Below, piece after piece: positions 39,197 to 56,216 of a DNA stretch of 64,000 nucleotides. Made by a program: the position numbers and the translations under genes. The notes below the pieces were generated by a model, which worked only from the letters and a program-made list of their open reading frames with translations, was not told the origin of the DNA and did no database searches. Each line of letters opens with the position of its first letter. The first letter of the stretch is position 1. Source of the DNA: Terriglobia bacterium (GTDB lineage: Bacteria > Acidobacteriota > Terriglobia > Bryobacterales > Bryobacteraceae); the NCBI GenBank assembly GCA_020073145.1, contig JAIQFS010000007.1, positions 1 to 64,000 on the forward strand. Reading direction: 5' to 3'.

Positions 39197-39257
39197 TTGC
39201 TCGGTGCGCCGTTGTATCCGGCGCAACTAAAGCACTGAACATAAGGAGAGGACCACT

Positions 39258-40143
39258 ATGAAATCTCAATACCGATGCTTCATGACTATTGGCGTGGCGC
39301 TGCTGTATTGTTCAGCCAGGCCGCGTCTGCTCAAGCCGCCGGCTTAACAGCAATCCGCTCAGGTAGGCCCCGGTCGGGGACGTGGCCCGGGTCCCGTCCG
39401 CCCGCCTGATCCGCGCGTGCATCAGCGCACCTATCGCTTTGCCGAAGCGGACAAGGACATGGCGTACGCGCTTTACGTTTGCTCCAAAGTCACCAGGGCA
39501 AAAGCCGCACCGCTGATCGTCGCACTCCACGGGATGGGCGGCGACCAGAACTCGCTGCTGCGCGGCAACGCCATCGATCTGGCCGAGGAGGGCGGATACA
39601 TTCTGGTCGGACCAATGGGCTACAACCCGCAGGGCTGGTTCGGCTCTCCCGTCATCACGCCGCGCCGCGGAGGGCCGGGTGGAGAGCAAACCTCGAACGA
39701 TCCTCCCAATCTGCGCGAACTTAGCGAAAAGGACGTCATGAACGTTCTCGATCTCGTTCGCAAAGAATTCAATGTCGACCCGCAACGTACGTATCTGATG
39801 TGGCACTCCATGGGCGGGGCGGGCACCCTCTTCCTCGGCCCGAAGTACGCATCGAACTGGGCGGCCATCGCAGCGATGGCGCCGGCTGCTTTCGCCATGC
39901 TCCCGACCGCGACCGACCTGCTCACGCCGATCAAGAGCACCATGCCGGTACTGCTGCTTCAGGGAGACGCCGACAATGTCGTGCCGCCCGACTACGCCCG
40001 GCGCTGGGCCGCGGCCATGAAAGACCTGAATATGAACTATAAGTACGTCGAGATGCGGCGAAGATCACGGCACCATCATCGCGAAGTCGATGCCGGAAAG
40101 TTTCCGGTACTTCGGTGAGCACTCGAAACCGGCAACACACTGA
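39258..40143 (+). pseudogene. Frameshifted esterase, paralogue of the one at 58376
   Basis: ATG 39258 has AAGGAGAGG, but the signal-peptide region leaves frame and meets TAA 39345-39347. The main frame then runs on from before 39417 (QQSAQVGPGRG, APLIVALHGMGGDQNSLL, NVLDLVRKEFNVDPQRTY). Instead of GHSMGG it has WHSMGG. Near 40062 the frame shifts again: the catalytic-histidine part DHGTIIAKSMPESFRYFGEH continues in another frame to TGA 40141. Two frame breaks and the damaged elbow mark it as a pseudogene. Confidence 0.7.
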
Positions 40144-40166
40144 AGCCGAAGATCAACTGACCACGT

Positions 40167-41768
40167 CTACTCTTTACAAGTGAAACTCGCCGCGTCATTC
40201 TGCGGCCCTGTCCCGTTGTATTGAGCATGCTTCGGCCAGGCGCACAGCGGCCGCGACACGTTGGGGAACTGCGCGCCAGTGGCCCGCAGGCTGTCGGGAG
40301 CCTTGCCGTTCTCGACCCACTTCACAATCGCATCCAGAGCATCGAAGTTGTCGAGCGCCGGTCCGCCCGCGCAATGGTTCATGCCCGGTACCGGGAAGAA
40401 ACGCGCGAAACTCATCGTTTTGTCGAGTCCGCCGTTGTCTTTCGCGAGCCGCTCATAATAGTGCTGCGTATCGAGTGCGGAAAAGAACGGGTCGGCCATG
40501 CCGTGATACAGCAGGAGTTTGCCACCATGATCGGTGAATGTCTCGATGTCTGTGGACGTCGGGTCTTCCAGCGCGGCCGTGTCCTCCACCCGCGGCGTGT
40601 CCTTGTCGAAGTCGAACTTCAGGGGATCGAACGACTCATCGTACGGATACATGAAGTAGCCCTTGAGCCCGCTCAGCATCAGCAGCACATCGATGGAATT
40701 GGATTGCGCTGTGGGGGACGTGCCCAGCTTCAGCGCGCGCCACCCGGGCGAGGCCATCCCAGGGTCCCACGGCCAATCGGAATAAATTGCATCGCCGCGC
40801 GAATTTTTCGGACCGCTCATCACCTTCTCCAGAGCCGTTACCTGCTCGCGGCTGAGGCAACCGGGCTGCTTGGCCCCGGCGCACATCAGCGTTTTTGGAT
40901 CGAACCGGCAGGCCTTCGTGTTCATCACCAGGCGGTCTGCGAGGCCATCGAGTGCATCACACTGTTTGAGAATGCCGTCGGCCACAAGCTTGAGATCGGC
41001 GTCGGAAAACGCGCGGCTCAGGATCGGCCGCCCTGAATCGTCTTTTGGCGCGATATTCAGAAACGTCTGCGTCTCCCAGGCCGAGCCGATTCCGGCGTGG
41101 GTTACGCGGAATGCGGGAGCGCCGGAAACGATGCCGTCGAAATCGCGTGGATAGCGCTGCGCGGCCATTAGTGCCTGACGTCCACCGTTTGAACAGCCAT
41201 CGAAGTAGGCGTGCCGCCAGGGCTCTCCGTAGTACCGCATGGCGATCTGCTTCGAAACCTGTGTCACGCGCTCAATCGAACGGTAAGCATTGTCGATGCG
41301 CGCCTGCTGATCGCGGGCGAACGATGCGTCGGCCTCGGGCATCGGAGGAGCGCCCGTGTGACCGGCGTCGGTTGAAACGACGGCGAACCCTCGCGCGAGT
41401 GCCGGATTCGGATTGGCGCCCGATGCGGCGCCGAGCGCAGGCCGAACCGTGCCATCCATTCCGCCACCGCCCTGAAAAAGAAAGCGCCGTTCCCATTTGA
41501 CCGGCAGGCGCATCTCGAAGCCGATCGCGAACGGCTTGCCGCCAAAGCCGACGCGCCTGTCGATCGCCCCGCGAACGAGGCAGTGTTCGGGTACCGTGCC
41601 GCTGCCGCGACCCGCAGGGCCTGCCGGCGTGAGCATCGCGGAGGTGATCTCGACTTCCGGGATCGATACGCGGTTGAGAGCCGAGCAGCGATCCGCATCC
41701 GTCTGTGCGTAAAGCGTGACGGCAAACAGCGGGAGAAACGTCAAACTTCTGGCGAACATAATTTTCAT
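40167..41768 (-). CDS. Tannase/feruloyl-esterase family protein
   Basis: 533 residues with a signal peptide. The complete CS-D-HC motif is present: GCSNGGRQ (Cys-Ser), GMADPFFSALD (Asp) and GMNHCAGG (His-Cys). QGGGGMDGTVRP forms the oxyanion loop. The cysteines C-(n)-C in CDALDGLADRL, CRFDPKTLMCAGAKQPGC also match the family's calcium/lid region. It is close in length and order to the copy at 32463. ATG 41768 overlaps the stop of the esterase gene upstream (ATGA), so the two are one operon, controlled from the 42813 operator. Confidence 0.85.
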   Translation of the reverse strand: MKIMFARSLTFLPLFAVTLYAQTDADRCSALNRVSIPEVEITSAMLTPAGPAGRGSGTVPEHCLVRGAIDRRVGFGGKPFAIGFEMRLPVKWERRFLFQGGGGMDGTVRPALGAASGANPNPALARGFAVVSTDAGHTGAPPMPEADASFARDQQARIDNAYRSIERVTQVSKQIAMRYYGEPWRHAYFDGCSNGGRQALMAAQRYPRDFDGIVSGAPAFRVTHAGIGSAWETQTFLNIAPKDDSGRPILSRAFSDADLKLVADGILKQCDALDGLADRLVMNTKACRFDPKTLMCAGAKQPGCLSREQVTALEKVMSGPKNSRGDAIYSDWPWDPGMASPGWRALKLGTSPTAQSNSIDVLLMLSGLKGYFMYPYDESFDPLKFDFDKDTPRVEDTAALEDPTSTDIETFTDHGGKLLLYHGMADPFFSALDTQHYYERLAKDNGGLDKTMSFARFFPVPGMNHCAGGPALDNFDALDAIVKWVENGKAPDSLRATGAQFPNVSRPLCAWPKHAQYNGTGPQNDAASFTCKE

Positions 41769-42787
41769 CGCTTCGGTGTTTCAGTCAGGTGCTCGGAAAA
41801 GAATGGCAAAACCTTCGCCGTGAAACGGGCCGTGATGCGGTTGCCGTGATCGCCGTCGTAGCTCTCGAAAGTGTGAGCTACTCCCAGACGCGTCAGTGCC
41901 TGATCGAGCTGCGTATTCGTGGTGATGAATGGGTCCTTGGTTCCGACGTCTATAGCAATCGCGCGATACATCTTCAGCGCCGGCACATATTGATCCACCA
42001 TCACGAGAGGCGAGTTGGTGGTCCATTTGGCGGCGATCAGCGGCTGGAGTTCGCCATCTTTGCTTGGAAGGTCGAAATACGTTGGTGGATTCATCGTGTC
42101 GGGCGCCCACGCCGCGGCCTGCGCGGAGAGCGCGTGCGCCAGAGCACCGCTAGGCGGCTGATTCGCCGATGCCCCCGGAAGCAGGCGCTGCGGATCGTTC
42201 ATCAGGCAGCAGGAACTCATCGCATAAAGCACCGAGAAAGCTTCGGGATGCTTCATGCCGATGCGTACCGTTCCATATCCGCCCATCGAATGGCCTGCGA
42301 GACCTCGCGCGCTCCGATCCGCAATCGTTCGGTAGTGGGTGTCGGTGTAATCGATCAGGTCTTTTGCGATGTACATCTCCCAATCGCCTGTGGTGGGTGA
42401 ATTCGAAAACATGCTGCCGTCATAAACAGAAAATGCATCGGGAAGCACCAGGATCATTTCATGTGCCGACCCATTGGCGATATCCGCGTCAGCAGCGGCG
42501 GGAACGTCGAGCGACCTCCAGTAGGTCTCGGCGTGCGCGGCGTATCCATGGAGGAAGTAAACCACCGGATAGCGCCGGTTCGGATTTGTGGTATAACTCG
42601 GCGGCAAATAAACGAACACGTCGCGATCCGGCGAATCACCCTCGAGATTTCCTTCAAGCGATTTACCGTGGACCTTGATCTTTTCCCATGAACCTTTCTT
42701 TCCCGCGTCACTGTTCTGCGCCCTGCTTCCAGGAGCGGCAAACACCACCATGGATGTGGCAACGAGTACGGTCAGAGCAGTCCTCAT
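41765..42787 (-). CDS. Secreted esterase (PF00756 type)
   Basis: 340 residues. The signal peptide MRTALTVLVATSMVVFAAPGSRAQ is followed by DRDVFVYLPPSYTTNPNRRY, VVYFLHGYAAHAETYW, the elbow LAGHSMGGYGTVRIG (Ser), DVGTKDPF (acid) and SYDGDHGNRI (His). The order is that of the S-formylglutathione hydrolase/feruloyl esterase group. Its promoter contains the palindromic operator between the -35 and -10. It forms a two-gene operon with the tannase at 40167. Confidence 0.8.
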   Translation of the reverse strand: MRTALTVLVATSMVVFAAPGSRAQNSDAGKKGSWEKIKVHGKSLEGNLEGDSPDRDVFVYLPPSYTTNPNRRYPVVYFLHGYAAHAETYWRSLDVPAAADADIANGSAHEMILVLPDAFSVYDGSMFSNSPTTGDWEMYIAKDLIDYTDTHYRTIADRSARGLAGHSMGGYGTVRIGMKHPEAFSVLYAMSSCCLMNDPQRLLPGASANQPPSGALAHALSAQAAAWAPDTMNPPTYFDLPSKDGELQPLIAAKWTTNSPLVMVDQYVPALKMYRAIAIDVGTKDPFITTNTQLDQALTRLGVAHTFESYDGDHGNRITARFTAKVLPFFSEHLTETPKR

Positions 42788-42809
42788 CGGTTTGTCCTTC
42801 ACGTTGCAG

Positions 42810-42869
42810 TTTATACCAGTCAGCCGGTATGATGTCATATTGCCGGAAGACAATCGGCCGCGCTACACT
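42810..42869. promoter_or_regulatory. Operator site 2 with two divergent promoters
   Basis: The palindrome ATACCAGTCAGCCGGTAT is at 42813-42830. On the minus strand, the promoter of the esterase gene is ATGACA (42833-42838), 17 bases and TATAAA (42810-42815), so the palindrome fills the space between -35 and -10. On the plus strand, TTGCCG (42840-42845), 18 bases and TACACT (42864-42869) serve the GxWEGD gene, with the palindrome nine bases upstream of the -35. Confidence 0.7.
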
Positions 42870-42881
42870 GGAATTCCTATT

Positions 42882-43733
42882 GTGCAGACCAAATTCGTAA
42901 TCGCCACGCGAGGCGTCCTTTTCGCGACACTCCTGTTTTCTCTGACCATGACCCCCTTATTGCGGGCGCAATGGCTCGGTTATGCGACGAAGGATGTGCC
43001 GAAGAAACCCGATGGCACTCCCGATCTCTCGGCGCCTGCTCCACGCACTGCCGACGGAAAGCCAGACCTCTCGGGTATGTGGGGATGGGTCAATATCGGA
43101 CCGCCGTGCGGCGCTCAGTGTACGGACACGCAGATTTCGCGCGAGTTCATCAATATCGCTTCTTCTCTGAAAGGGGCGCTGCCGTACCAGCCCTGGGCAG
43201 CGGAGCTGGTGAAGAAGCGGAGCCTCGAGCAGGGCTCGGACCCGAACGTTCATTGCATGCCGCGCGACGCGCCACGCCTCTGGACGGACGACTACTATAA
43301 GCGCATTTTCATGGTGCCCGGCCGGGTCATCGTCCTGGTCGAACGTAATATGCAGTACCGGCAGATCTTCACGGACGGAAGAGCGCTCCCCAAGGACCCG
43401 AATCCCACCTGGAACGGGTATTCGGTCGGCCGTTGGGAAGGTGACACGTTCGTCGTAGAGACTACCGGTTTCCGCGACGATCTGTGGCTGGATGCCGCCG
43501 GGAATCCTCTGACCGAGCAGGGCAGGATGACCGAAAGAATCCGGCGGCCCAACTACGGTACGCTCGAGGTCGAGATTACGATCAACGATCCGAAGGCCTA
43601 TACGGCGCCGTGGACTGTAAAAGTCAATCAGCCTCTGGTTCTCGACAGCGAACTTATCGATTACTATTGTCTCGAAAACGAACGCGACTCCACGCACATG
43701 CGGAAACAGGACACTCCGATCGGCGTCCGGTAG
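42882..43733 (+). CDS. Secreted GxWEGD-motif protein, uncharacterised family
   Basis: 283 residues from GTG 42882. A signal peptide (GVLFATLLFSLTMTPLLRAQ) is followed by KPDLSGMWGWVNIGPPCGAQ, CMPRDAPRLWTDD, GRWEGDTFVVETTGFRDD and DPKAYTAPWTVKVNQPLVLD, the family core. The gene lies in the palindrome-controlled regulon, next to esterases, which is the only hint of a role. A degenerate copy of its end (GPWTVKINQPLALE) is at 49722. The start lies about six bases after the predicted transcript start, so the mRNA may be nearly leaderless. Confidence 0.65.
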   Translation: MQTKFVIATRGVLFATLLFSLTMTPLLRAQWLGYATKDVPKKPDGTPDLSAPAPRTADGKPDLSGMWGWVNIGPPCGAQCTDTQISREFINIASSLKGALPYQPWAAELVKKRSLEQGSDPNVHCMPRDAPRLWTDDYYKRIFMVPGRVIVLVERNMQYRQIFTDGRALPKDPNPTWNGYSVGRWEGDTFVVETTGFRDDLWLDAAGNPLTEQGRMTERIRRPNYGTLEVEITINDPKAYTAPWTVKVNQPLVLDSELIDYYCLENERDSTHMRKQDTPIGVR

Positions 43734-43748
43734 CAATCCTGAAGGGTT

Positions 43749-45749
43749 TCAACTAGTGCGAACCTCCGAAGCCTTGCCGGCTCCGAATAGATAAATATCG
43801 CAGAAGCAGGCCGCTAACTCGACGGGTCCAAGCGAACCGCCTTTCTGGTACCACTCGACGGTGCGGTCGAGCAGTCCCCGGAGCATGGAAGCCAGATAGC
43901 GCGGCTCCACATCCGCGCGAATGGATCCGTTCTTCTGCCCTTCCTCGATCATCCGGCGGATTCCGGTCTGGTAAATCTTCCGCATGCTGACAATTTCCGA
44001 AAGGCGCTCTGGGGAGAGAGCTCGCACCTCGGCCAGCGCGGTCGCGTGTTGAGTCTGATCACGGAGCAGGCTCATGCAATGTGCTCGAATCAGCACGGCG
44101 AGGTGCTCGATCGGGCAAGTGATTCCCTCAACCGCTTTGTTCACCTCCTCCTGCAGTGTTTCGACTGAAGACTTGGTGATCAGGTACAGGAGGTCCTGTT
44201 TGCTCTTGACGTGGTAGTACAGCGTCGCCTTTTCCATGCCGATCAGCGCCGAGAGCGACCGTGTGCTGGTGGACGCGTAACCCTGCTTTGAAAACAGTTC
44301 GGCCGCAGTGCGGACGAACTTGCCGAGAGTGCCGCTGGGGCCTGAGCTGGGGCGTCTCCTGCTGAGGCTTTTCAACTCGGGCACGGACGGCCTTCCACGG
44401 CCCGGAGTGACAATGCCCTCGAAAAACACCCGAGCGTAGATTCCCGCGAGATCGTCCAGAGGCAACCTGCCCGAGATCTGATACCAGCGTGGGGTCCAGT
44501 TCAGATAGTTGAAGAGGGCGAGTCGAAGGATGGAGAGGGGAATGTCCTTGCGCACCATGCCCGCCTTTACGGCGGATGCGAGCTCTCGATGGAGCAGGTC
44601 AGAATAACTCCGGCGCAGCGCCGTGAACTCCCGGCGATGGGCGCGAGAGAGGGACCGCAATTCACCGATTGCCGCCAGCGCCCGATTCGGGTTTTCGAAC
44701 AGGCCCTGGAGATGCCCGCGGATGAAAGCGCACAGACGGTCGCGCTCGTCCCCGCGGCTGTGGAGCGCCGCGCCGACCTGTCGTTCCACGACTTCGAGAA
44801 CGAGTTTGCTGATGCGATACAGCAGATCCTCTTTCCCGGAGATGTGATAGTAAAGCGACGCCTGATGAATGTTCAGACGGGCGGCGATTTCGCGGGTTGT
44901 GGTCTCTCTGAAACCTTTTTCACAGAACAGCGCCGCAGCCGCCTCGAGTACCAGCTGAGACGTGGGACCGGCCGTTTCGCCATTGTGGGTCTGGGGCGTG
45001 GCTCTTCCCTTGGGGGGCCGATGTGCGGCGGCAGTTTTCGCCTTGGCAACGACGCGGCCAGGCCTGTCAATGGCGTTCTTAACGCCCCGCAGCGCAAACC
45101 GCGCATGCTCACGCACAAGGGCTTCGGCCCCGGCCGCATCGCCGGTTTGAATAGTGTCGAGAATCGCTTCATGCTCCCGGATCGCCTGCGCAAAACCTCC
45201 GGGTTCTGCCGGAGTCACGACCGCGGCAGGAGAGGCGAAAGCGATGGACTGAACACGATCGAGCGAAAGCTGCAGCATCGGGCTCTTCGCGAGGGCGACG
45301 AGTGCTTTGTGAAAAGCCAGGTTCAATTCGCCGAAACGGGCCATCTGGTCGGCGGTCGGAGATTCCGTTGTGCTGAACGAGGCTGTCGCTTCGCGCAGTG
45401 CGGCATTGAGGCGGCGAGTTCGGTCGAGTTGCGCGGAATCGGCGCCGCGCCGTGCCGCCATGCCGGCGGCAAGACTTTCCAGTGCGCCGCGCGCCTCAAT
45501 GGAATCCGCGATGTCCTGAGCGCTGAAAATACGAGGCGCGAAGGCACCCGCGGACAACTCTTCCAACAGGCCTTCCTGGTGCAATTGTTCCAGAATCGCG
45601 CGAACGATGGGCCGGGAGGCGCCGAGCGTCTTTGAAAGTTCCACGTCTTCGATGGTTTTTCGGTTGGCGAATTCACCACGCAGAACCATTTCGCGAACGG
45701 TGACCAGCGCCTGTGCGCGGCGTGAATTCACGCGTGGAGAGTTAGGCAT
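43749..45749 (-). CDS. Triple-headed regulator: GntR/FCD fused to two TetR units
   Basis: 666 residues. Residues 10-75 are a GntR winged helix (TIEDVELSKTLGASRPIVRA, ILEQLHQEGLLEE). Residues 80-225 are an FCD domain with His147, His193 and His215 at usual metal-ligand places. After a basic linker, residues 265-312 are a TetR helix-turn-helix (TTREIAARLNIHQASLYYHI) followed by its helical partner to about 445. After a second linker, residues 475-523 are another TetR head (STRSLSALIGMEKATLYYHV) and its ligand domain to the end. I know no characterised protein of this order. It is convergent with the gene at 42882 and divergent from the TonB receptor, with a copy of the palindrome between them, so it is the likely binder. 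Confidence 0.85.
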   Translation of the reverse strand: MPNSPRVNSRRAQALVTVREMVLRGEFANRKTIEDVELSKTLGASRPIVRAILEQLHQEGLLEELSAGAFAPRIFSAQDIADSIEARGALESLAAGMAARRGADSAQLDRTRRLNAALREATASFSTTESPTADQMARFGELNLAFHKALVALAKSPMLQLSLDRVQSIAFASPAAVVTPAEPGGFAQAIREHEAILDTIQTGDAAGAEALVREHARFALRGVKNAIDRPGRVVAKAKTAAAHRPPKGRATPQTHNGETAGPTSQLVLEAAAALFCEKGFRETTTREIAARLNIHQASLYYHISGKEDLLYRISKLVLEVVERQVGAALHSRGDERDRLCAFIRGHLQGLFENPNRALAAIGELRSLSRAHRREFTALRRSYSDLLHRELASAVKAGMVRKDIPLSILRLALFNYLNWTPRWYQISGRLPLDDLAGIYARVFFEGIVTPGRGRPSVPELKSLSRRRPSSGPSGTLGKFVRTAAELFSKQGYASTSTRSLSALIGMEKATLYYHVKSKQDLLYLITKSSVETLQEEVNKAVEGITCPIEHLAVLIRAHCMSLLRDQTQHATALAEVRALSPERLSEIVSMRKIYQTGIRRMIEEGQKNGSIRADVEPRYLASMLRGLLDRTVEWYQKGGSLGPVELAACFCDIYLFGAGKASEVRTS

Positions 45750-45839: not shown

Positions 45840-45885
45840 TTACCAATCGACCGGTATTGACATCGGCTCCGGAAGCGGGTAAACT
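45840..45885 (+). promoter_or_regulatory. Operator site 3 and promoter of the TonB receptor
   Basis: The palindrome TTACCAATCGACCGGTAT (45840-45857) ends on the first base of a consensus promoter: TTGACA (45857-45862), 17 bases and TAAACT (45880-45885), which leads to the TonB receptor at 45953. On the other strand the palindrome borders a TAAAAA that could serve as the -10 of the regulator gene at 45749, with a poor -35. Confidence 0.7.
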
Positions 45886-45952
45886 CCGTGCTGATCGTTA
45901 CAACTTGCAGGGGGTCTGGGAACGGGAGAGCCCGCCCAGGAAGGGGAATACA

Positions 45953-48900
45953 ATGTATCGATTTTTGCTGGTTATTTTGCTAGCGTGCGTCGCTGCGTTC
46001 GGTCAGGGCGACCGCGGGACTATTACAGGGACCATTACCGATCCCGCAGGCGCTGTCGTGGCGGGCGCGGGCATCGAAGCCAAGAATATTGAGACGGGCG
46101 TGCCGTTCCAGGCAGCCAGTACGGAGACGGGGAACTTCACGATTCCACAGTTGCCGGTCGGAGTGTACGAACTCTCGGTCACAGTGCCGGGTTTCAAGAA
46201 ATATGTACGGTCGGGCCTGACGGTAGCGGCGACGCAGACGATTCGCGTCGACATCCCGTTGGAGGTGGGCGCCGCTACGGATTCGGTGACGGTGCAAGCA
46301 GACGCCACGCTCTTAAAGACCGAGAGCGGCGAAATCAGCCACACGATCCAGGCGCAGCACCTGGTCGACCTCGGGTTGCTCGGCATCGGCGGAACGTTTT
46401 CGTCAAGCCAGGGCTTGCGCTTCTACCAGGCGGAAATCGCACTGATTCCAGGAGCCTCCGCACCGGCCTCGGGATTTGTCTTAGGGGTCCGCGTGAACGG
46501 GGCGCCTAATGGCACGGGACGCACGCAGATCGACGGAATGGACGGCACCAACCAGATCAACGCCGTCCAGGCCGGCGTCGGAGCCAGCGTGGATGCAATC
46601 CAGGAGAGCGCCATCCAGACCAACAACTTCTCGCCGGAATATGGCTCGGTGGGCGGCGGGCTGTTCAACCTCACCATGCGGTCGGGCACCAATCAATATC
46701 ACGGCGCGGGCTACGATTACCTCTCCAATGAAGCCTTCAACGCCTCCACGCCGTTCGTCAATACCCGGCAGCGAATTCGACGCAACGACTACGGCTTCAA
46801 CGTCGGCGGCCCGGTGCGCATTCCCAAGGTATACAACGGCAAGGACAAGACGTTCTTCTTTTACAACCGCGAGCAGTACCGCGAATTCTTCGTCGTCAAC
46901 GACACCTTTATCACGGTGCCCACCGCGGCTTATCGCACGGGCGACTTCAGCGGGGCCATCACCGGCGCGAACCTCGGAAAGGATCCGCTGGGCAACACCA
47001 TCCTGGAGGGCATGATCTACGATCCGGCTTCCGTGCAAAACGTCAACGGGCAACTGGTACGAACTCAGTTTTCGAACAACGCCATCCCGGCCGCGCGGTT
47101 CGACAAAGTTGCGGTGGCAATCCAGAACTTGATTCCCAACCCGACGAATGGCAACAACTCGCTGAACAATCTGCCGTCGTTCCCGAACGACCGGGTGACG
47201 ACCAATGAATCGGTAAAGCTGGATCACCAGTTAAACAGCAGGATGAAAATCAGCGGTCTGTTTCTGACCAACGCAACCGCCACCCAGTACTCGCAGAGCC
47301 TGAACGGCTCTGAAGGGCTGCCCGCCACCATTACCGCGACCCGGGGCAGTTTCAGCCGATCCCAACAATGGCGTCTGAATTTTGACGACACGCTGAGCCC
47401 CACTGTGCTTCTGCACGTGGGGGCGGGCCTCTTGAATTACTTACTCGATGACCACTCCCCTACTACCAATTTCAACGACAGCGCCATTGGGCTGACCGGC
47501 GTTTCCAACCCCGGCGGGCGCTTCCCGAGCCTGAGCGGATTGTGCTCGGCAGGCTTGGGCACCAACACCTCGCCATGCACCGGAACGGGTGGAACGATGA
47601 GCATGGGCCCCGGCGTTGGGGCCGCACAGTCGATCACCAAACAAATGACGCCGACCTATCAGGCCTCCGTCACCTGGGTAAAGGACAACCACACGTTCAA
47701 GTTCGGCAGCGAGGTGCGCGAGTTCGGTTACCCGCTGCTGGCGCTGGCTGCCACAAACGGGTCGTTCGTCTTCTCGGCGAATCAAACGGCCCAGCCGTAC
47801 GCTCAATCCGCGATTATCGGGGGACGCTCGGTCGGATTCCCCTATGCCAGCTTCCTGCTGGGCCTGGTAAACAGCGGCATGGTGAATCCGCCGGCGGATC
47901 TGCGCATGGGAAAACATTTCATCTCGTTCTTCGCCCAGGATTCCTGGAAAGTCACTCGCAAGCTGACGTTCAATTACGGTCTACGGTACGACTACGACAC
48001 TTATCCCAGAGAGCAATATGGACGCATGCCGACCCTAGCCCCCGGCTTGGCGAATCCGACGGTCGGGGGACGTCCCGGTGGCGTGATTTACGAGTCCACG
48101 TGCAATTGCAGCTTTGCCCACAATTATCCGTACGCATTCGGTCCCCGCCTTGGTGTGGCCTACCAGATCACGGCCAAGACGGTATTCCGCGCCGGCATTG
48201 GTATCGCCTACGACGGCACCGCGACGGCGGCCACGGGAACTGGGAGCGCATCGCCCGCCAACAACTTCACGGCGCCCGGATTTGGCGATCCGGCGATGAC
48301 GCTGGCCGGGGGAGTGCCGCAGCAGTACGTGCTCCCGTGGCCTAATCTCTCGGCCGGTGCGTACCCCAATCCCAACTTCCCCGCCGCTCAGAACGGGCCG
48401 ACTTCCGTGGTGGATCAGAACGCCGGCCGGCCAGCTCGCCAGGTCCAGTGGAGCGTTGGGGTCCAGCGCGAGATCTTCCCGAATCTGCTCCTGGACGTCA
48501 ACTATGTCGGCAACCGCGGCGCGTGGTGGCTGAGTACCGTCCTCGACAACTACAACGCAATCACCACACAGATCTTGAGCGCCAACGGGCTGGATATCAA
48601 TACCGCGGCAGATCGCGCGATTCTCCGGTCCACGATTGGATCCGCGGGCGCTGGGCGTTTCCAAAATAAGCTGCCTTACGCCGGTTTCCCGCTGGGCTCA
48701 ACGGTCGCCCAGTCTCTGCGGCCCTTCCCGCAGTTCACGGCCGGGCTGGCGCCGCTGTGGGCGCCGCAAGGACGCACCTGGTACGACTCGCTGCAGTTGA
48801 AAGTCACCAAGCGCTTCTCTCACGGCCTGATCCTCGATTACGCCTTCACCTACGCCAAGGAGGAGCAACTCGGCGTCGAAGGGGGCACGGTCAACGACTT

Positions 48901-49576
48901 TCAAAACCGGATGCAGAACAAAACCCTCTCCGGATTCTCGCGTCCGTTTGTGAGCGTAGTGTCAGCCAACTACCGGCTGCCCGCATGGGGACCGAACAAG
49001 GTCTTCTCGCAGGTGGTCCGCGACTGGACGATCGGTTCGGTGCTAAGCTACGCGAGCGGCCTGCCCATTCTTGCGCCCACCTCGACGAATAATCTGAGCA
49101 CGCTGTTGTTTCGCTCGACCTACTTCAACCGCAACCCGGGCGTGTCGCCGTTCCTCAAGGATTTGAACTGCCACTGCGTCGATCCCACGAAGGACCTGGT
49201 GCTGAACCCGGCGGCATGGAGCAACCCGACCGACGGCCAGTGGGGCACTGCGGCGCCGTACTATAACGATTACCGCTACGAGCGGCGGCCATCCGAATCG
49301 CTGAGCCTCGGCCGCATCTTCAAATTCAACGAGAGCGGGATGGCGCTGACGGTCCGGATGAACTTCCAGAACATCTTCAACCGTACGCAGCTATCGAATC
49401 CGACAGCCACTAACCCTCTCGCCTCCACGACCTGCACCGCGGGCGCCGGCGCGGTCTGCGCGAATCCGGCGACGGCCGGCAAGTACACCGGCGGGTTCGG
49501 CTTCATTAACTACGTGGGCGGCTCGACATTCCAGCCGCCGCGGCAAGGCACGCTGGAGATGCGCTTTCAGTTCTGA
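45953..49576 (+). CDS. TonB-dependent receptor with carboxypeptidase-like domain (large)
   Basis: 1207 residues; ATG 45953 with AGGAAGGGG upstream. Residues 20-105 form the carboxypeptidase regulatory-like domain (GTITGTITDPAGAVVAGAGI, TGNFTIPQLPVGVYELSV). The plug (about residues 120-250) includes GAPNGTGRTQIDGMDGTNQ. The barrel ends in LEMRFQF. It is the outer-membrane import protein of the palindrome-controlled set; the promoter is overlapped by operator site 3 and the regulator gene is divergent. A strong terminator follows at 49626. The imported compound is unknown. Confidence 0.85.
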   Translation: MYRFLLVILLACVAAFGQGDRGTITGTITDPAGAVVAGAGIEAKNIETGVPFQAASTETGNFTIPQLPVGVYELSVTVPGFKKYVRSGLTVAATQTIRVDIPLEVGAATDSVTVQADATLLKTESGEISHTIQAQHLVDLGLLGIGGTFSSSQGLRFYQAEIALIPGASAPASGFVLGVRVNGAPNGTGRTQIDGMDGTNQINAVQAGVGASVDAIQESAIQTNNFSPEYGSVGGGLFNLTMRSGTNQYHGAGYDYLSNEAFNASTPFVNTRQRIRRNDYGFNVGGPVRIPKVYNGKDKTFFFYNREQYREFFVVNDTFITVPTAAYRTGDFSGAITGANLGKDPLGNTILEGMIYDPASVQNVNGQLVRTQFSNNAIPAARFDKVAVAIQNLIPNPTNGNNSLNNLPSFPNDRVTTNESVKLDHQLNSRMKISGLFLTNATATQYSQSLNGSEGLPATITATRGSFSRSQQWRLNFDDTLSPTVLLHVGAGLLNYLLDDHSPTTNFNDSAIGLTGVSNPGGRFPSLSGLCSAGLGTNTSPCTGTGGTMSMGPGVGAAQSITKQMTPTYQASVTWVKDNHTFKFGSEVREFGYPLLALAATNGSFVFSANQTAQPYAQSAIIGGRSVGFPYASFLLGLVNSGMVNPPADLRMGKHFISFFAQDSWKVTRKLTFNYGLRYDYDTYPREQYGRMPTLAPGLANPTVGGRPGGVIYESTCNCSFAHNYPYAFGPRLGVAYQITAKTVFRAGIGIAYDGTATAATGTGSASPANNFTAPGFGDPAMTLAGGVPQQYVLPWPNLSAGAYPNPNFPAAQNGPTSVVDQNAGRPARQVQWSVGVQREIFPNLLLDVNYVGNRGAWWLSTVLDNYNAITTQILSANGLDINTAADRAILRSTIGSAGAGRFQNKLPYAGFPLGSTVAQSLRPFPQFTAGLAPLWAPQGRTWYDSLQLKVTKRFSHGLILDYAFTYAKEEQLGVEGGTVNDFQNRMQNKTLSGFSRPFVSVVSANYRLPAWGPNKVFSQVVRDWTIGSVLSYASGLPILAPTSTNNLSTLLFRSTYFNRNPGVSPFLKDLNCHCVDPTKDLVLNPAAWSNPTDGQWGTAAPYYNDYRYERRPSESLSLGRIFKFNESGMALTVRMNFQNIFNRTQLSNPTATNPLASTTCTAGAGAVCANPATAGKYTGGFGFINYVGGSTFQPPRQGTLEMRFQF

Positions 49577-50810: not shown

Positions 50811-50893
50811 TGAGATTCCATCCTGTTCTGGTTTTGTAAAACGACTTAAGAGTTCAGCCGGCCTGAGCTGCCTGAAAACACTTCTGGAGGGCG

Positions 50894-50965
50894 ATTCTAC
50901 AATGTTCGGAAGCTTTCTGTCAAAGGACAGCAGGTCTTGCACTTATACCTGTCGGCTGGTAAAAT
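50894..50965. promoter_or_regulatory. Operator site 4 with divergent promoters
   Basis: The palindrome ATACCTGTCGGCTGGTAA (50945-50962) lies between TTGCAC (50937-50942) and TAAAAT (50960-50965), a 17-base-spaced promoter reading plus to the ankyrin operon. The minus-strand promoter TTGACA (50918-50923), 18 bases and TAGAAT (50894-50899) serves the lactamase-fold gene; the palindrome is 21 bases upstream of its -35. Confidence 0.7.
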
Positions 50966-50975
50966 TTATGACGCA

Positions 50976-50999
50976 ACTTGCCGCTCCGCGGCGGCAAGT
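50976..50999 (+). other. Leader hairpin before the ankyrin gene
   Basis: ACTTGCCGC (50976-50984) pairs perfectly with GCGGCAAGT (50991-50999), with TCCGCG as loop. The stem ends just before the TGGAGG ribosome site of the ankyrin gene. No T-run follows, so it is not a simple terminator. It could affect translation or mRNA stability. Confidence 0.5.
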
Positions 51000-51013
51000 C
51001 TGGAGGACGCTCC

Positions 51014-52573
51014 ATGAAGGCTCGATTCGCCGGATTCCTGCTCGCTTGCCTGGTTTCGCTATGGCCGCCGGCGGCGGCCGCGGCGGATGCGAAGGTTGCC
51101 GCGGCCGCACGCGACGACGATCGCACGACGGTCATTGCGCTGGTGCGCAAAGGATCAGAGGATCCAAACGCAAAACTGCCGGACGGCACCTCCGCTTTGC
51201 ACTGGGCCGTCCGATCCGACGATTCTGAACTGGTTTCGCTCCTGCTCCAGGCGAAGGCCGACGCCAATGCCGCCGATCCAGATGGCGTGACTCCTCTCGC
51301 GATCGCCAGCGCGAATGCCAATGCGGAGGTGGTTCGCAGGCTGCTGGCTGCCGGAGCCAACCCCGATCTGGCGGATCGCGCGGGGTTCACGCCGCTCATG
51401 CTGGCTGTCAGCCGCCCGCGATCCGAGAACGTCCGCATTCTGCTCGATGCGGGCGCGAAGGCGGACGCACGAGAAAGCGAAGCGCAGGAAACGGCTCTCA
51501 TGATAGCTGTGAGAGAAAACAACGCGGCGGCCGTCCGCCTCCTGCTAGAACACGGAGCGGACGTCAATGCGGCAACGCGGGTGGGGAAAACGCCAGCTCG
51601 CCGTCCACCGGGCGCCGGCGGCGGGTCTCACGGTGTGGGCATTGTGCGCAGCGGCTGGCCGGAACAAGGCTATCAGGAGGCGACGCCGGGAGGAATGACG
51701 CCGCTCCTTTATGCAGCCAGAGACGGGCGCACGGAAATTGCCCGGATGCTGATTGGCGCGGGCGCGAAGGTGAGTGTGCCGGATGCCAACAAAATCACTC
51801 CTCTGCTGATGGCGATCACCAACAACCAGCCGGACTCAGCCGATCTTCTGATCCAGAACGGCGCGGAGATCAACGGCTCCGACTTCTGGGGAAGAACGCC
51901 TCTATGGGCCGCGGTGGAAATGCGCGATCTCGAATACAGCCGCGGCGGGGAACACAATGTTGACCGAGAGCGCCTTCTGCAGTTAATTGGCGAACTGCTC
52001 GATCGGGGCGCCAATGCAAACGCGCGAACGGCGGAAGTTCCTCCGACCCGACGATTCCTGATGGGGCTCGGCGATCTCTCGTGGGTCGATTTCACCGGAC
52101 AGACGCCGTTTCTGCGCGCAGCGCTGTCCGGCGATCTTACCGTCATGAAACTGCTGCTGGAAAAGGGGGCCGATGCGAATATTCCCACGTTCGCGGGAAC
52201 CACGGCGCTGATGGCTGCCTCGGGCATCAACTGGGTGATCAACCAGACGTTCACCGAGGGTCCTGCAACACAGATCGAAGCGGTGAAGTTGTGCCTCGAA
52301 AAAGGCGCCGATATCAACGCTGCCAACTCCATGGGGCTGACGCCGGTATTCGGGGCCGCGAACAGGGGCGCGGACGATCTCCTGGCATTTCTCGTAGAGC
52401 ACGGCGCGCGTTTGGACGTCAAAGATAAAGAAGGAAGAACCCCGATGGTGTGGGCCGAAGGTGTGTTCCTGGCAACAAACGCGCCGGAGAGCAAGCCCTC
52501 CACGATTGCGCTCATCGAAAAGCTTTCGAAGAAAGATGTTGCGACGTCGTCGCCGGTGGCCAGTACCCGATGA
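51014..52573 (+). CDS. Secreted ankyrin-repeat protein
   Basis: 519 residues. A signal peptide (ARFAGFLLACLVSLWPPAAAAA) is followed by about ten ankyrin repeats, for example DGTSALHWAVRSDDSELVSLLLQ, GVTPLAIASANANAEVVRRLLAAG and GFTPLMLAVSRPRSENVRILLD. Ankyrin repeats bind proteins. In Acidobacteria such proteins often accompany DUF1592/DUF1552 genes, as here. The next gene's ATG overlaps the stop (ATGA). ATG 51014 has TGGAGG upstream. Binding partner unknown. Confidence 0.8.
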   Translation: MKARFAGFLLACLVSLWPPAAAAADAKVAAAARDDDRTTVIALVRKGSEDPNAKLPDGTSALHWAVRSDDSELVSLLLQAKADANAADPDGVTPLAIASANANAEVVRRLLAAGANPDLADRAGFTPLMLAVSRPRSENVRILLDAGAKADARESEAQETALMIAVRENNAAAVRLLLEHGADVNAATRVGKTPARRPPGAGGGSHGVGIVRSGWPEQGYQEATPGGMTPLLYAARDGRTEIARMLIGAGAKVSVPDANKITPLLMAITNNQPDSADLLIQNGAEINGSDFWGRTPLWAAVEMRDLEYSRGGEHNVDRERLLQLIGELLDRGANANARTAEVPPTRRFLMGLGDLSWVDFTGQTPFLRAALSGDLTVMKLLLEKGADANIPTFAGTTALMAASGINWVINQTFTEGPATQIEAVKLCLEKGADINAANSMGLTPVFGAANRGADDLLAFLVEHGARLDVKDKEGRTPMVWAEGVFLATNAPESKPSTIALIEKLSKKDVATSSPVASTR

Positions 52574-54861
52574 ACGCTTTCCATATCACCGCCGCTCTGA
52601 CGCTCCTGCTGAGTGCGTACCATCCGGCCGCTGCGCAGAAGCCGGCCGCATCTGAGCGGCAGTTTGTTACGCAGTACTGTCAGGGCTGCCATAACGGCCG
52701 GCTCAAAACCGGCGGGCTTTCGCTGGAACAGATGGATCCTGGGCAGGTGTCGCAAAGTCCCGAGGCCTGGGAAAAAGTGGTGCGAAAGCTGCGGGCGGGC
52801 ATGATGCCGCCGAGCGGCGCTCCCCGCCCGGATCGAGCCGCAATCGATGCATTCGCTGCTCATATCGAGAATTCGCTGGATCAATTCGCGGTGGGGCATC
52901 CGAACTCAGGGACTGTCGGGTTGCACCGCCTGAATCGCGCGGAGTATGCGAACGCGGTGCGCGATCTGCTGGATGTGGACGTCGACGTATCGACGTTGCT
53001 GCCCTCTGACGACTCGAGCGAAGGATTCGACAACATTGCCGCCGCTCTGGGAGTTTCGCCGGCGCTACTGGAGCGCTATGTGGCGGCAGCCACAAACATC
53101 AGCAGCCTCGCCATAGGCGACCCCGCAACCACGCCTACGACAAACACGTGGCGCGCTCCGGGAGACCTTTCGCAGACCGCGCACATCGAAGGGCTGCCCA
53201 TCGGCACGCGGGGCGGAATGCTGTTCAAATACACGTTCCCCCTGGATGCGGAGTACGCCTTCAAAATTCGCGCGCGCAGCGCCGGTCTCGGCGTTGGCGC
53301 GGGCGGCGGGCCCGTGCCCCTCGAGATCACTCTCGACGGAGCCCGCATCAACCCGGGAAAGAGCGCGACCGATTTTCGGCTTACGATCACAGCCGGGCCC
53401 CATAACATCGGCGTCGCCATGCCGCAGCACAGTTCGGCAGGCGTGGATGACATTTACGGCACATATCCGGACAATGCCGGCGTGACGAGCGTGGCGATCA
53501 CCGGACCGACCAATCCTTCAGGTCCCGGTGACACCCCCAGCCGGCGAAAGATTTTCGTTTGCCGCCCCGGTCCCGGTGAGGACGAGACCATTTGCGCTAA
53601 ACGCATTCTGACATCTCTTGCGGAAAGGGCTTTCCGGCGGCCGGTCCGCGACACCGATCTCGAAACCTTGCTCGGCTTCTATCAGCAGGCCAAGAACGCG
53701 GGTGGATTCGAGCACGGAATCGAAGCGGCTTTGGCGCGTATTCTGATGGATCCGTGGTTTATCTTCCGCATCGAGCACGAGCCGGCGGGAACAGCCCCGG
53801 GCGGAGTCTATGCGGTGAGCGATGTGGAGCTCGCTTCCCGGCTTTCTTTCTTCCTTTGGAGCAGCATTCCGGATGAGGAACTGCTGCGGCTGGCGGAGCA
53901 AAACAAGCTGCATGAACCCCAGATTCTCGTGCAGCAAACCCGCCGCATGCTGGCCGATTCGAAGGCCTCGGCGCTGACCGTCAACTTTGCGGGCCAGTGG
54001 CTTTATCTCCGCGAATTGAAAAGCGCCCGGCCCGACACCCGCGAGTTCAACGACAATCTTCGTCAATCGTTCCGGCGTGAGACGGAAATGTTCTTCGACA
54101 GCATCGTCCGCGAAGATCGCAGCGTGGTCGGTCTGCTGGATGCCGACTACACCTTTGTCGACGAACGTCTGGCAAAGCACTATGGCATCCCAGACGTCTA
54201 CGGCAGCCGCTTCCGCCGCGTGAAACCGTCGGACGATTCGCGGCGGGGATTGCTGGGCCAAGGCAGTATTCTGCTGGTTACGTCCGTGGCCACCAGAACG
54301 TCTCCCGTGGCTCGAGGCAAGTGGGTTCTCGAAAACATCCTCGGCAGCCCGCCGCCTCTTCCGCCGCCGAACGTGCCGGCTCTACCCGAGGACGCCTCTT
54401 CAGTGAAACCGGTCTCCGTGCGAGAACGAATGGAGGCACATCGTAAGAACCCCGTATGCGCATCATGCCATAAGATCATGGATCCGATTGGATTCTCACT
54501 CGAAAATTTCGACCTGACCGGCAGATGGCGGACGACCGACGGAGGCGTGCCGGTGGATGCGTCGAGCGAGATGGTGGATGGAACGAAACTGTCCGGCCCC
54601 GCCAGCCTGCGCCAGGCGTTGTTAGGCCGCTCAGACGTCTTTGTCTCCACATTGACCGAGAAGCTGATGACTTATGCGCTCGGCCGCGGATTGAAATACT
54701 ACGACATGCCGGCAGTGCGCGCGATTGTGCGCGAGGCCGGCCGCAATAACGATCGTTTCTCTTCCATCGTGCTGGGGATTGTCAAGAGCACACCATTTCA
54801 GATGAAAGCGAAACCGGTCGAAAACACCGGGACCGAAGCACAGAGGGCCGCGTTGCGCTGA
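52570..54861 (+). CDS. Cytochrome-type protein with DUF1587-DUF1595-DUF1592-DUF1588-DUF1585 order
   Basis: 763 residues. After the signal peptide, a haem motif CQGCH lies at residues 37-41, followed by LHRLNRAEYANAVRDLL (DUF1587), AFRRPVRDTDLETLLGFYQQA (DUF1595), LASRLSFFLWSSIPDEELL (DUF1592), ARGKWVLENILGSPPPLPPPNVP plus CASCHK (DUF1588 with the second haem) and LMTYALGRGLKYYDMPAVR (DUF1585). This Planctomycete/Acidobacteria family is always paired with a DUF1552 protein. Its function is unknown, perhaps electron transfer in polymer breakdown. It is translationally coupled to the ankyrin gene. Confidence 0.85.
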   Translation: MNAFHITAALTLLLSAYHPAAAQKPAASERQFVTQYCQGCHNGRLKTGGLSLEQMDPGQVSQSPEAWEKVVRKLRAGMMPPSGAPRPDRAAIDAFAAHIENSLDQFAVGHPNSGTVGLHRLNRAEYANAVRDLLDVDVDVSTLLPSDDSSEGFDNIAAALGVSPALLERYVAAATNISSLAIGDPATTPTTNTWRAPGDLSQTAHIEGLPIGTRGGMLFKYTFPLDAEYAFKIRARSAGLGVGAGGGPVPLEITLDGARINPGKSATDFRLTITAGPHNIGVAMPQHSSAGVDDIYGTYPDNAGVTSVAITGPTNPSGPGDTPSRRKIFVCRPGPGEDETICAKRILTSLAERAFRRPVRDTDLETLLGFYQQAKNAGGFEHGIEAALARILMDPWFIFRIEHEPAGTAPGGVYAVSDVELASRLSFFLWSSIPDEELLRLAEQNKLHEPQILVQQTRRMLADSKASALTVNFAGQWLYLRELKSARPDTREFNDNLRQSFRRETEMFFDSIVREDRSVVGLLDADYTFVDERLAKHYGIPDVYGSRFRRVKPSDDSRRGLLGQGSILLVTSVATRTSPVARGKWVLENILGSPPPLPPPNVPALPEDASSVKPVSVRERMEAHRKNPVCASCHKIMDPIGFSLENFDLTGRWRTTDGGVPVDASSEMVDGTKLSGPASLRQALLGRSDVFVSTLTEKLMTYALGRGLKYYDMPAVRAIVREAGRNNDRFSSIVLGIVKSTPFQMKAKPVENTGTEAQRAALR

Positions 54862-54890: not shown

Positions 54891-56216
54891 ATGAACTTCA
54901 TTACGAAAAAGCATCTTCCGCGGCGCACGTTCCTGCGTGGAGCGGGCGTCACCATCGCCCTGCCGCTGCTGGATTCGATGATCGCGGCCCAGACGCCTCT
55001 GGCGCGGACGGCAGCGAATCCTCGGAGCCGGCTGGGGTGCATCTACGTGCCGCACGGCGCCACGATGGACAAATGGACGCCGGCCCAGGAAGGCAAGGGC
55101 TTCGAGTTCACCGAGATTCTCAAGCCGCTGGAAAAATACCGCGACCGCCTTGTGGTGGTGAGTAATCTGGCGCATCCGCAGGCTGCGGGTGTCGGCAGCG
55201 ATGCGGGCGCGGACCACGCGCGTTCGGCTGCTGTTTTTCTGAGCGGCGCGCATCCCGAGAAAGAAAGTGTGCACGTGGGGACCACGATCGACCAGATTGT
55301 GGCGGAGCAACTGGGGCAGGATACGCCCCTGCCGTCCTTGGAGGTGGCGATCGAGGAGAACGGGCTGAACTGCGGCGCGGGTTACGGCTGCGCGTACACC
55401 AACACCATCTCTTGGAAGACGCCGACGCTGCCCCTGCCGATGGAGCACAATCCGCAGGTCCTGTTTGAGAGGTTGTTTGGCGAAGGCAGCACGGCAGAGG
55501 AACGGGTGGCGCGCAAGCAGCAATCGCGCAGCCTGCTGGATTCGGTCACGAAGGAGATCGCTTCCCTGAACAAGGAGTTGCCTGCTTCCGATCGCGGGCG
55601 TATGAGCGACTTCCTCGACGACGTCCGAGAAATCGAGCGCCGGATCCAGAAGGCCGAGCATCAGGCGTCCCGAGACGTGAAAGTGCCGGACGCGCCGGTG
55701 GGCATTCCCGAGGCCTTCGACGATCACTTCAAGATCATGTTCGACCTTCAGGCGATCGCGTTCCAGGCGAACATCACGCGCGTCGCGACTATGATGTACG
55801 CTCGGGACACCAGCGGCGCGGTATATCCGCAGAGCGGCGTCAGAGAAGGTTTCCATGTGGCCTCGCATCACTCGAACAATCGAGCGAACATGGACCGGTT
55901 CGCGGTGATTAACCGCTACCACACGAGCCTTTTGGCGTACTTTATCGAGAAACTACATTCCACGCCGGATGGCGATGGCACGCTGCTGGATCATTCGCTG
56001 ATTCTCTATGGGAGCAGCATGAGCAACGGCAACCAGCACGATCACGATCCGCTGCCCGTGGTGGTGGCCGGCGGGGCGTCCGGCAATTTGCGTGGAGACC
56101 GGCATATCATCGCGGCGCCTCACACACCCATGTCGAACCTGCTGCTGAGTATCCTCGGCAAGCTGGGAGTTCAGCAGAATTCGTTTGGCGACAGCACGGG
56201 TACAATCGAGCTCTGA
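54891..56216 (+). CDS. DUF1552 family protein with Tat-type signal
   Basis: 441 residues. HLPRRTFLRGAGVTIALPLLDSM is a twin-arginine-type signal. The rest follows DUF1552: LGCIYVPHGATMDKWTP, LVVVSNLAHPQAAG, HARSAAVFLSG and LDHSLILYGSSMSNGNQHDHDPLPVVVAGG. These proteins may be related to the sulfatase/alkaline-phosphatase fold, but no activity is proven. It is placed 29 bases after the DUF1592 gene, as in most genomes with this pair. Confidence 0.85.
   Translation: MNFITKKHLPRRTFLRGAGVTIALPLLDSMIAAQTPLARTAANPRSRLGCIYVPHGATMDKWTPAQEGKGFEFTEILKPLEKYRDRLVVVSNLAHPQAAGVGSDAGADHARSAAVFLSGAHPEKESVHVGTTIDQIVAEQLGQDTPLPSLEVAIEENGLNCGAGYGCAYTNTISWKTPTLPLPMEHNPQVLFERLFGEGSTAEERVARKQQSRSLLDSVTKEIASLNKELPASDRGRMSDFLDDVREIERRIQKAEHQASRDVKVPDAPVGIPEAFDDHFKIMFDLQAIAFQANITRVATMMYARDTSGAVYPQSGVREGFHVASHHSNNRANMDRFAVINRYHTSLLAYFIEKLHSTPDGDGTLLDHSLILYGSSMSNGNQHDHDPLPVVVAGGASGNLRGDRHIIAAPHTPMSNLLLSILGKLGVQQNSFGDSTGTIEL

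Follow-up and report, generated by a model that had tools for sequence, protein, structure and literature searches.

We found a gene in a Terriglobia bacterium (Acidobacteriota; Bryobacteraceae) whose product carries a GntR/FCD unit followed by two TetR units in one chain. We consider it rather probable that this protein is a two-input regulator acting at receptor promoters, made by the fusion of two regulators that served such promoters separately. The reading frame, its homologues, the synteny and the agreement between promoter boxes and regulators were established by computation. Below, "the window" is the whole stretch of DNA that was analyzed (64,000 nucleotides, contig JAIQFS010000007.1, positions 1 to 64,000).

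No report of a natural GntR/FCD-TetR-TetR protein was found in the open-licence PMC literature, in line with the initial annotation, which had called the architecture undescribed. The nearest cases found there are Mce3R and an engineered GntR-TetR switch, and no GntR-TetR fusion appears in the available portions of two TetR surveys (PMC4482099, PMC3511530). Double TetR-family regulators (double TFRs) are known and one has been solved, but we found none that is fused to a second, unrelated regulator family.

Gene and domain layout

The open reading frame starts with ATG and encodes 666 amino acids in the order GntR/FCD-TetR-TetR. Its parts are as follows.

43749..45749, minus strand: GntR/FCD-TetR-TetR regulator, whole gene, 666 amino acids (open reading frame, Pfam, full-length relatives)
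45525..45749, minus strand: GntR winged helix, residues 1-75 (Pfam score below the cut-off, score of the relative L040, fold match)
45066..45524, minus strand: FCD domain, residues 76-228 (Pfam; N143, H147, H193 and H215 at the Zn-ligand positions of Atu1419)
44970..45065, minus strand: linker 1, residues 229-260 (low model confidence; 29% identity to L040)
44406..44969, minus strand: TetR unit 1, residues 261-448, recognition helix HQASLYY (Pfam, tree, model, helix comparison)
44334..44405, minus strand: linker 2, residues 449-472 (low model confidence)
43770..44333, minus strand: TetR unit 2, residues 473-660, recognition helix EKATLYY (Pfam, tree, model, helix comparison)

Pfam matches above the cut-off are FCD at residues 83-217 (E 4.6e-21), TetR_N in two stretches (E 1.2e-24) and TetR_C_24 in two stretches (E 3.7e-46); TetR_C_4 matches residues 530-632. 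The GntR match (residues 18-63) reaches 19.3 bits, below the Pfam cut-off of 27, and the corresponding region of L040, one of three other fusions, scores 40.7 bits. In the full-length model, whose pTM is 0.36, confidence falls below 50 at residues 230-260 and 446-472, within or around both linkers.

The initial annotation had read the frame as one uninterrupted chain of GntR/FCD and then two TetR units, with three helix-turn-helix regions and flexible basic linkers. The open reading frame, Pfam, the model and the relatives confirm the chain and its order. The three helix-turn-helix regions are supported as well, and so are the flexible, basic linkers, which we place at about residues 229-260 and 449-472. 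Linker 2 of the window protein contains a GRGRP sequence that is absent from the three other fusions; we take it to resemble the core of an AT-hook.

Relatives, distribution and descent

Full-length, stop-free fusion homologues occur in three other genomes and are 50-52% identical to the window protein, so neither chance nor an assembly slip explains the frame. These three fusions belong to a second genus, and their genomes are metagenome-assembled and assigned to Terriglobia or Bryobacteraceae. With the best five candidates per genome scored, the fusion is present in 4 of the family's 237 genomes, and a fusion or tandem match in 7 of the 237. The receptor search and the class-wide draw scored the best two candidates per genome, and weaker copies may be missed in any of these searches. 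At the cut-offs used, no further fusion appeared in the class-wide draw (399 genomes) or the phylum-wide draw (396 genomes); tandem TetRs of two additional families came from the latter. The window genome comprises 6.3 Mb in 88 contigs, and the nearest relative in it is a TetR-TetR protein (C15:147228; 40% identity over residues 259-658). Two lone GntR/FCD proteins, 41% and 37% identical, are encoded there too.

Close pairs among the three non-window fusions give dN/dS values of 0.07-0.20 in all four domains and higher values, 0.29-2.2 where computable, in the short linkers. On these sequence comparisons, purifying selection appears to act on each domain in these three proteins. Between the window protein and L040, identity is 41% in the GntR winged helix, 56% in FCD, 49% in TetR unit 1 and 63% in TetR unit 2, so the winged helix is the most diverged domain.

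The fusions form one clade in each domain tree (support 100/99 for the TetR N half, 98/100 for the TetR C half and 99/100 for GntR/FCD, in a tree that counted one gene twice, L016 being L151). In the tree of TetR halves, for which 13 of 14 tandem chains (G034:C87 left out) and 4 of 18 single TetRs were used, the 13 N halves make up one group (92/93) with the 13 C halves outside it. The N halves of the fusions group with those of two tandem-only proteins (96/85). A full-length alignment that included single TetRs was set aside because these were split across both units. Judging from the trees, the two TetR units are old paralogues. Given that the N halves stand apart from the C halves and that the fusions are one clade in each tree, we conclude that the TetR doubling came first and that GntR/FCD was added later, most simply once. 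The fusion GntR/FCD units are not nested among the lone GntR/FCD proteins linked to the receptor cluster described below, and the tree therefore does not identify the precise donor.

The TetR pair is predicted to resemble Mce3R

Modeled alone, from four sequences, residues 256-666 yield a pTM of 0.80. The best solved match of this model is Mycobacterium tuberculosis Mce3R (9b7y), which it spans over both domains (Foldseek TM 0.76/0.80 over 409 columns; VIA Z 30.4, rmsd 3.5, 365 residues), and the next matches, with Z of 22.2 or less, are single-domain TetRs. The five tandem models have mean pLDDT values of 81, 71, 59, 55 and 53, the best being clearly ahead. Mce3R is not among the 50 best structural matches of the low-confidence full-length model; this probably means that the packing was not recovered there, rather than that it is disproved.

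The recognition helices also distinguish the two units. Immediately before the A/P-S/T-L/V-Y motif, the residue is Q in 13/13 N halves and K or R in 13/13 C halves (13 of 14 tandem chains compared, G034:C87 left out), a fixed difference that is expected if the helices read different half-sites. Two complete TetR units of distinct TetR lineages (Pfam, tree) are what the sequence criteria of a double TFR call for. In the tandem-only model, the two units look like one double TFR, not like two sensors.

According to the accessible part of its description (PMC11667970), Mce3R is an asymmetric bundle that binds a non-palindromic operator; a symmetric alternative was tested on Mce3R itself and asymmetry was found, and 204 double TFRs had earlier been predicted in actinomycetes. 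The window protein shares with Mce3R two TetR units of distinct descent per chain, two non-identical recognition helices and, in the tandem-only model, the packing (365 residues). By contrast, Mce3R has no GntR/FCD unit and is only 15-18% identical to the tandem part of the window protein, and its operator sites, used in pairs, are asymmetric and 25 bp long (same source), whereas the candidate box described below is a 14-bp near-palindrome.

The initial annotation had proposed three independent sensors. That proposal fits poorly with old paralogues, different recognition helices and Mce3R-like packing of the pair modeled alone; judging by the pair modeled alone, it is likelier that there are two modules for DNA binding, with perhaps two signals.

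The GntR/FCD part resembles VanR

Residues 7-237 of the full-length model match GntR/FCD structures such as 7u5q (Z 20.5, rmsd 3.1 over 214) and 6z74 (Z 19.7, rmsd 5.0 over 220). The latter is Atu1419, which is also the nearest solved GntR/FCD protein by sequence (E 3e-26). Like Atu1419, to which it is about 30% identical over 220 residues of structural alignment, the window protein has Asn/His/His/His metal ligands: the Zn ligands N137, H141, H192 and H214 of Atu1419 correspond to N143, H147, H193 and H215, and metal binding is predicted here. These four residues are invariant in a 10-row alignment of GntR relatives only. The winged helix of the window protein keeps the serine, the proline and the two arginines of the SRP..R motif.

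Atu1419 is the VanR of Agrobacterium fabrum and serves a hydroxycinnamate pathway, and its proposed effector is the folate derivative N5,N10-methylenetetrahydrofolate; it is a tetramer that binds ATGTATACAT palindromes and can loop DNA (accessible part of PMC7797058). As described there, it is a separate protein of about 250 residues without a TetR part. A TGTATACA-type box occurs at promoters of the window protein's relatives, in the form TTGYATRCAA in 3/3 other fusion promoters, but is absent from the window promoter. The FCD domain and the Asn/three-His residues by which the VanR subgroup is recognized are both present. Given the missing palindrome at the window promoter, we class the window protein as containing a GntR/FCD part rather than as a working VanR regulator.

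A conserved receptor locus

The fusion gene is divergent from a gene for a TonB-dependent-receptor-like protein, which heads a conserved cluster.

45953..49576, plus strand: divergent TonB-dependent-receptor-like outer-membrane protein, the likely target (Pfam OMP_b-brl_4 and CarboxypepD_reg; synteny)
50978..52570, plus strand: ankyrin-repeat protein of the conserved cluster (mechanical ORF bounds)
52450..54858, plus strand: PSD/PSCyt protein (DUF1592/1588/1587/1585/1595) of the conserved cluster (mechanical ORF bounds)
54891..56213, plus strand: DUF1552 (HXXSHH) protein of the conserved cluster (mechanical ORF bounds)

A divergent receptor gene, 70-71% identical to that of the window, adjoins all three other fusions and is followed there by ankyrin, PSD/PSCyt and DUF1552 genes (60-75% identical). 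Eleven receptor loci with at least 57% identity were found in the family search (best two candidates per genome scored). The fusion adjoins four of them, a lone GntR/FCD gene four, a tandem TetR gene one, and no regulator the remaining two. The lone GntR/FCD gene is divergent from the receptor in G148, G139 and G604, and lies at the receptor's other end in G024. The tandem TetR case is G598, which has two GntR/FCD genes on other contigs. The two receptor loci without an adjoining regulator are that of G134 and a frame-broken second copy in the fusion genome G119. Beside receptor paralogues of 48-51% identity, none of the 12 stretches fetched for comparison contained any of these regulators. 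This pattern of loci would be expected for two regulators of one kind of target that later fused.

Among 24 lone GntR/FCD loci checked, one (L016) is the G148 receptor case, another (L184) adjoins a receptor of about 50% identity and a third (L183) lies about 1.2 kb from a receptor piece (60% over 106 residues). The pairing of GntR/FCD with a receptor is thus not exclusive to the orthologue of the window receptor, and the lone GntR/FCD proteins may have several receptors of this kind as targets.

The second receptor copy of G119 (L156 6768-10366, G119:C8) is in two pieces, with the break near residue 272; both boxes described below are kept at its promoter, and no regulator adjoins it in the stretch fetched. 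A gene of the glyoxalase/dioxygenase family lies between the receptor and ankyrin genes in L040 (5125-5973) and L042 (5138-5974), with the Pfam assignment made on the L040 copy. In the corresponding place, the window has a gene with a metallo-beta-lactamase fold (49938-50942, minus strand). Convergent with the fusion gene is a gene (42675-43730) of a family without a Pfam match in the two members scanned and with a motif like GRWEGDT; this family recurs at L041, L079, L082, L085, L152, L154, L183, L185 and L187-L189, among others.

On the far side of the regulator (37484-42853), the window has two tannase/feruloyl-esterase genes and two other esterase-like genes. The initial annotation had suggested sensing of aromatic acids, an idea for which these tannase genes are the basis, and part of this suggestion survives: the likeness to Atu1419 favors it weakly, as do tannase-like matches of 30-33% near two of the 24 lone GntR/FCD loci (L173 and L181), which are themselves weak. 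However, the stretches fetched for the other three fusions contain no tannase match (that of L042 extends about 0.7 kb past the gene), and the neighbors that are conserved across the fusions lie on the opposite side from the tannase genes. Phenolic-acid sensing was therefore dropped as the main reading.

Two promoter boxes that follow the regulators

Three elements were found between the fusion gene and the receptor gene.

45842..45855, minus strand: tandem-TetR box ACCGGTCGATTGGT, centered at about -43.5 of the receptor promoter (candidate, pattern match)
45857..45885, plus strand: sigma-70-type promoter TTGACA-N17-TAAACT of the divergent receptor gene (matched by consensus; one occurrence, versus a mean of 0.1 in shuffles)
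45894..45903, plus strand: possible remnant half-site ATCGTTACAA in the register of the relatives' TTGYATRCAA (weak, 4/10 mismatches)

A TTGAC[A/T]-N17 promoter match is present in 4/4 fusion promoters, and all box positions are relative to start points assumed from the position of the -10 element. The tandem-TetR box is the 14-bp pattern ACCGGTCGAYNGGT, accepted with at most one mismatch; it has one strict half, ACCGGTCG, and one variable half, and the pattern itself favors the strict half. The GntR box, TTGYATRCAA, was accepted if its 8-base core was intact or if it had at most one mismatch.

The tandem-TetR box lies upstream of the -35 element in all four fusion promoters. Its positions are -53.5, -54.5 and -53.5 in L040-L042; the window, at -43.5, has it closer by about one helical turn. 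It is also present in both cluster promoters linked to tandem TetRs, those of the L086 receptor (-53.5) and the L083 PSD gene (-18.5), and at -53.5 of the second G119 receptor copy. It was found in none of the four GntR-only promoters, not in G134 (0/1) and not in the 12 paralogue promoters. G134 has a tandem TetR elsewhere in its genome, yet its receptor promoter lacks the box. Two of 10 tandem-only loci were part of this comparison. The L164 paralogue promoter was represented by no more than 166 bases, and L151 has other promoter matches besides the one used.

The GntR box occurs in 4/4 GntR-only promoters, at positions from -173.5 to +24.5, and in three of the four fusion promoters, 6.5 bp past the assumed start; these three have both boxes. 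It is present, too, in both tandem-linked promoters, in those of L156 and G134, and in two of the 12 paralogue promoters. The window promoter has no full GntR box, but only the possible half-site in that register. As an independent check, for 8 of 23 other GntR/FCD genes the GntR box is present in the 350 bp before the gene, compared to one match in 33 kb of the bodies and downstream DNA of those genes.

At least one tandem-TetR box occurs in six of 10 tandem-only loci, and none was found in the stretches fetched for L079, L080, L087 and L088. Binomial values computed for these loci were set aside, since their background included the promoters under test. L081 has two such boxes just past promoter matches. 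In L082 (7307) and L085 (8164), the gap between the tandem TetR gene and the next gene upstream contains the box, a placement that suggests autoregulation. L079 (G000:C15:147228-148451) is the second tandem TetR of the window genome, and the 17 kb fetched around it contain no tandem-TetR box; its operator may differ.

The number of tandem-TetR boxes is not informative by itself. The window genome has 14, versus 19 in a reversed control, and within the window, at two mismatches, 5 were found versus 2.14 expected, a number that 9 of 100 shuffles reach. In an exact scan of the family, 54 of 237 genomes contain the box; 49 of these have no tandem or fusion match, so the motif alone is not specific. 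Its specificity lies in its placement: in the seven tandem or fusion genomes, six of nine exact matches are no more than 7 kb from a tandem or fusion gene, but this count is partly circular, since the pattern was loosened after some of those loci had been seen; the stricter pattern was likewise tuned after some tandem loci were seen. A looser, fusion-only pattern has five matches in 155 kb of tandem loci (shuffle mean 0.4; 0/60 shuffles reach five); one of the five is intragenic, and another falls in the opening codons of a mechanical ORF. This pattern also has two matches in 96 kb of control loci. Given the lack of an excess, the claim for the box rests on its position and on its agreement with the regulator present. 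A large regulon for the window regulator was rejected for the same lack of excess in the genome scan.

Proposed mechanism and alternatives

We propose that two once-separate regulators of the receptor/ankyrin/PSD/DUF1552 cluster were fused into one one-component regulator. The first third of the chain would be a VanR-type GntR/FCD unit with a metal/effector pocket, and the last two thirds an Mce3R-like double TetR, whose halves would pack together and read one asymmetric box. The site of action would be the divergent promoter of the outer-membrane receptor gene. There, the TetR pair would bind the box upstream of the -35 element; the GntR box, about 60 bp from the TetR box and just beyond the start, would be bound by the GntR unit in the three other fusions. 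The chain is probably dimeric through FCD, and separate effectors would be bound in the FCD pocket and the TetR cavity. We infer the packing and the ligands, and likewise that the protein binds the boxes and bridges two of them. If one chain occupies both boxes together, release or activation would be governed by two different small molecules. In the window, where the GntR box has apparently decayed, the GntR/FCD part could work by sensing and oligomerization, or its specificity could have moved.

A stronger version is a natural single-molecule gate with two inputs, in which the fused GntR/FCD and double TetR clamp the two boxes on either side of the polymerase site, at a distance of about 60 bp, and integrate two metabolites by linkage instead of separate binding. 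We regard this as quite possible without counting it as probable. It applies first to the three other fusions, the second box of the window having decayed. Repression is our first guess for the mode of action, since the box overlaps the promoter or lies just beyond it at some tandem-only targets. The positions -43.5 and -53.5, one turn apart, would suit activation, and the sites in L081 and L083 would suit repression.

GntR/FCD proteins and single TetR proteins normally homodimerize, so the chain could also consist of three symmetric modules, with GntR-GntR, TetR1-TetR1 and TetR2-TetR2 contacts between two chains, three palindromic operators and up to three ligands. The failure of the full-length model to recover the Mce3R-like packing is consistent with this arrangement, but the tandem-only model pairs the halves within the chain and matches Mce3R over both domains, and the recognition residues of the halves are fixed and different. 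Moreover, only one TetR-type box was found within about 330 bp at the window promoter (two in L040), and Mce3R, tested for the symmetric alternative, was found to be asymmetric (accessible part of PMC11667970). We therefore regard symmetric modules as unlikely. A less improbable alternative, although still a doubtful one, is that the GntR part of the window protein no longer binds DNA specifically and acts as an effector-sensing and oligomerizing module for the double TetR. The window promoter lacks a GntR box, the winged helix is the most diverged domain, the Pfam GntR score is below the cut-off in the window copy but not in the other copy scored, and the FCD metal residues are kept. Against this, the serine, proline and two arginines of SRP..R persist in the window helix, a perfect GntR box is kept at the other three fusions, and specificity may have shifted instead of being lost.

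Two further explanations question the single chain itself. That the frame is translated or processed into separate proteins seems very unlikely to us: the linkers are variable and disordered in the model, and the annotated start lacks a strong ribosome-binding site, which leaves room for the use of weak starts, but the frame is open through both linkers in 4/4 genomes. The in-frame ATG, GTG or TTG codons near linkers have at most 4/6 matches to AGGAGG upstream, and none was found near linker 1 of the window. An assembly or binning artefact is hardly conceivable. The three public relatives are metagenome-assembled; nonetheless, the identical architecture with its divergent receptor recurs in four genomes, of which three are public records that come from two isolate series (SRVP, LS_FP), and each domain is under purifying selection among the three relatives. 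The fusion of two receptor-promoter regulators into one two-input protein remains our preferred reading.

Significance

The window protein would work like a double TFR tethered to a VanR-type regulator. Engineered single-chain TetR dimers exist and resemble it in having the TetR pair in one chain, but they are synthetic. The GntR of the engineered GntR-TetR switches is reportedly the gluconate repressor, which is of the LacI type and not GntR/FCD. These switches have two-input gates and resemble the window protein in that two regulators are fused into one switch, but they, too, are synthetic (available portion of PMC10450161).

The loci form a graded series at one kind of promoter, with GntR/FCD alone, double TetR alone and both fused, and the boxes follow. 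This series makes it testable what a single-chain fusion gains, be it cooperativity, logic or fixed stoichiometry. A further yield is a predicted operator for a group of tandem TetRs; for the receptor/ankyrin/PSD/DUF1552 clusters of these Acidobacteriota, the fusion is a candidate regulator. Apparently, a single molecule feeds two signals into one promoter in a soil bacterium whose relatives keep separate proteins.
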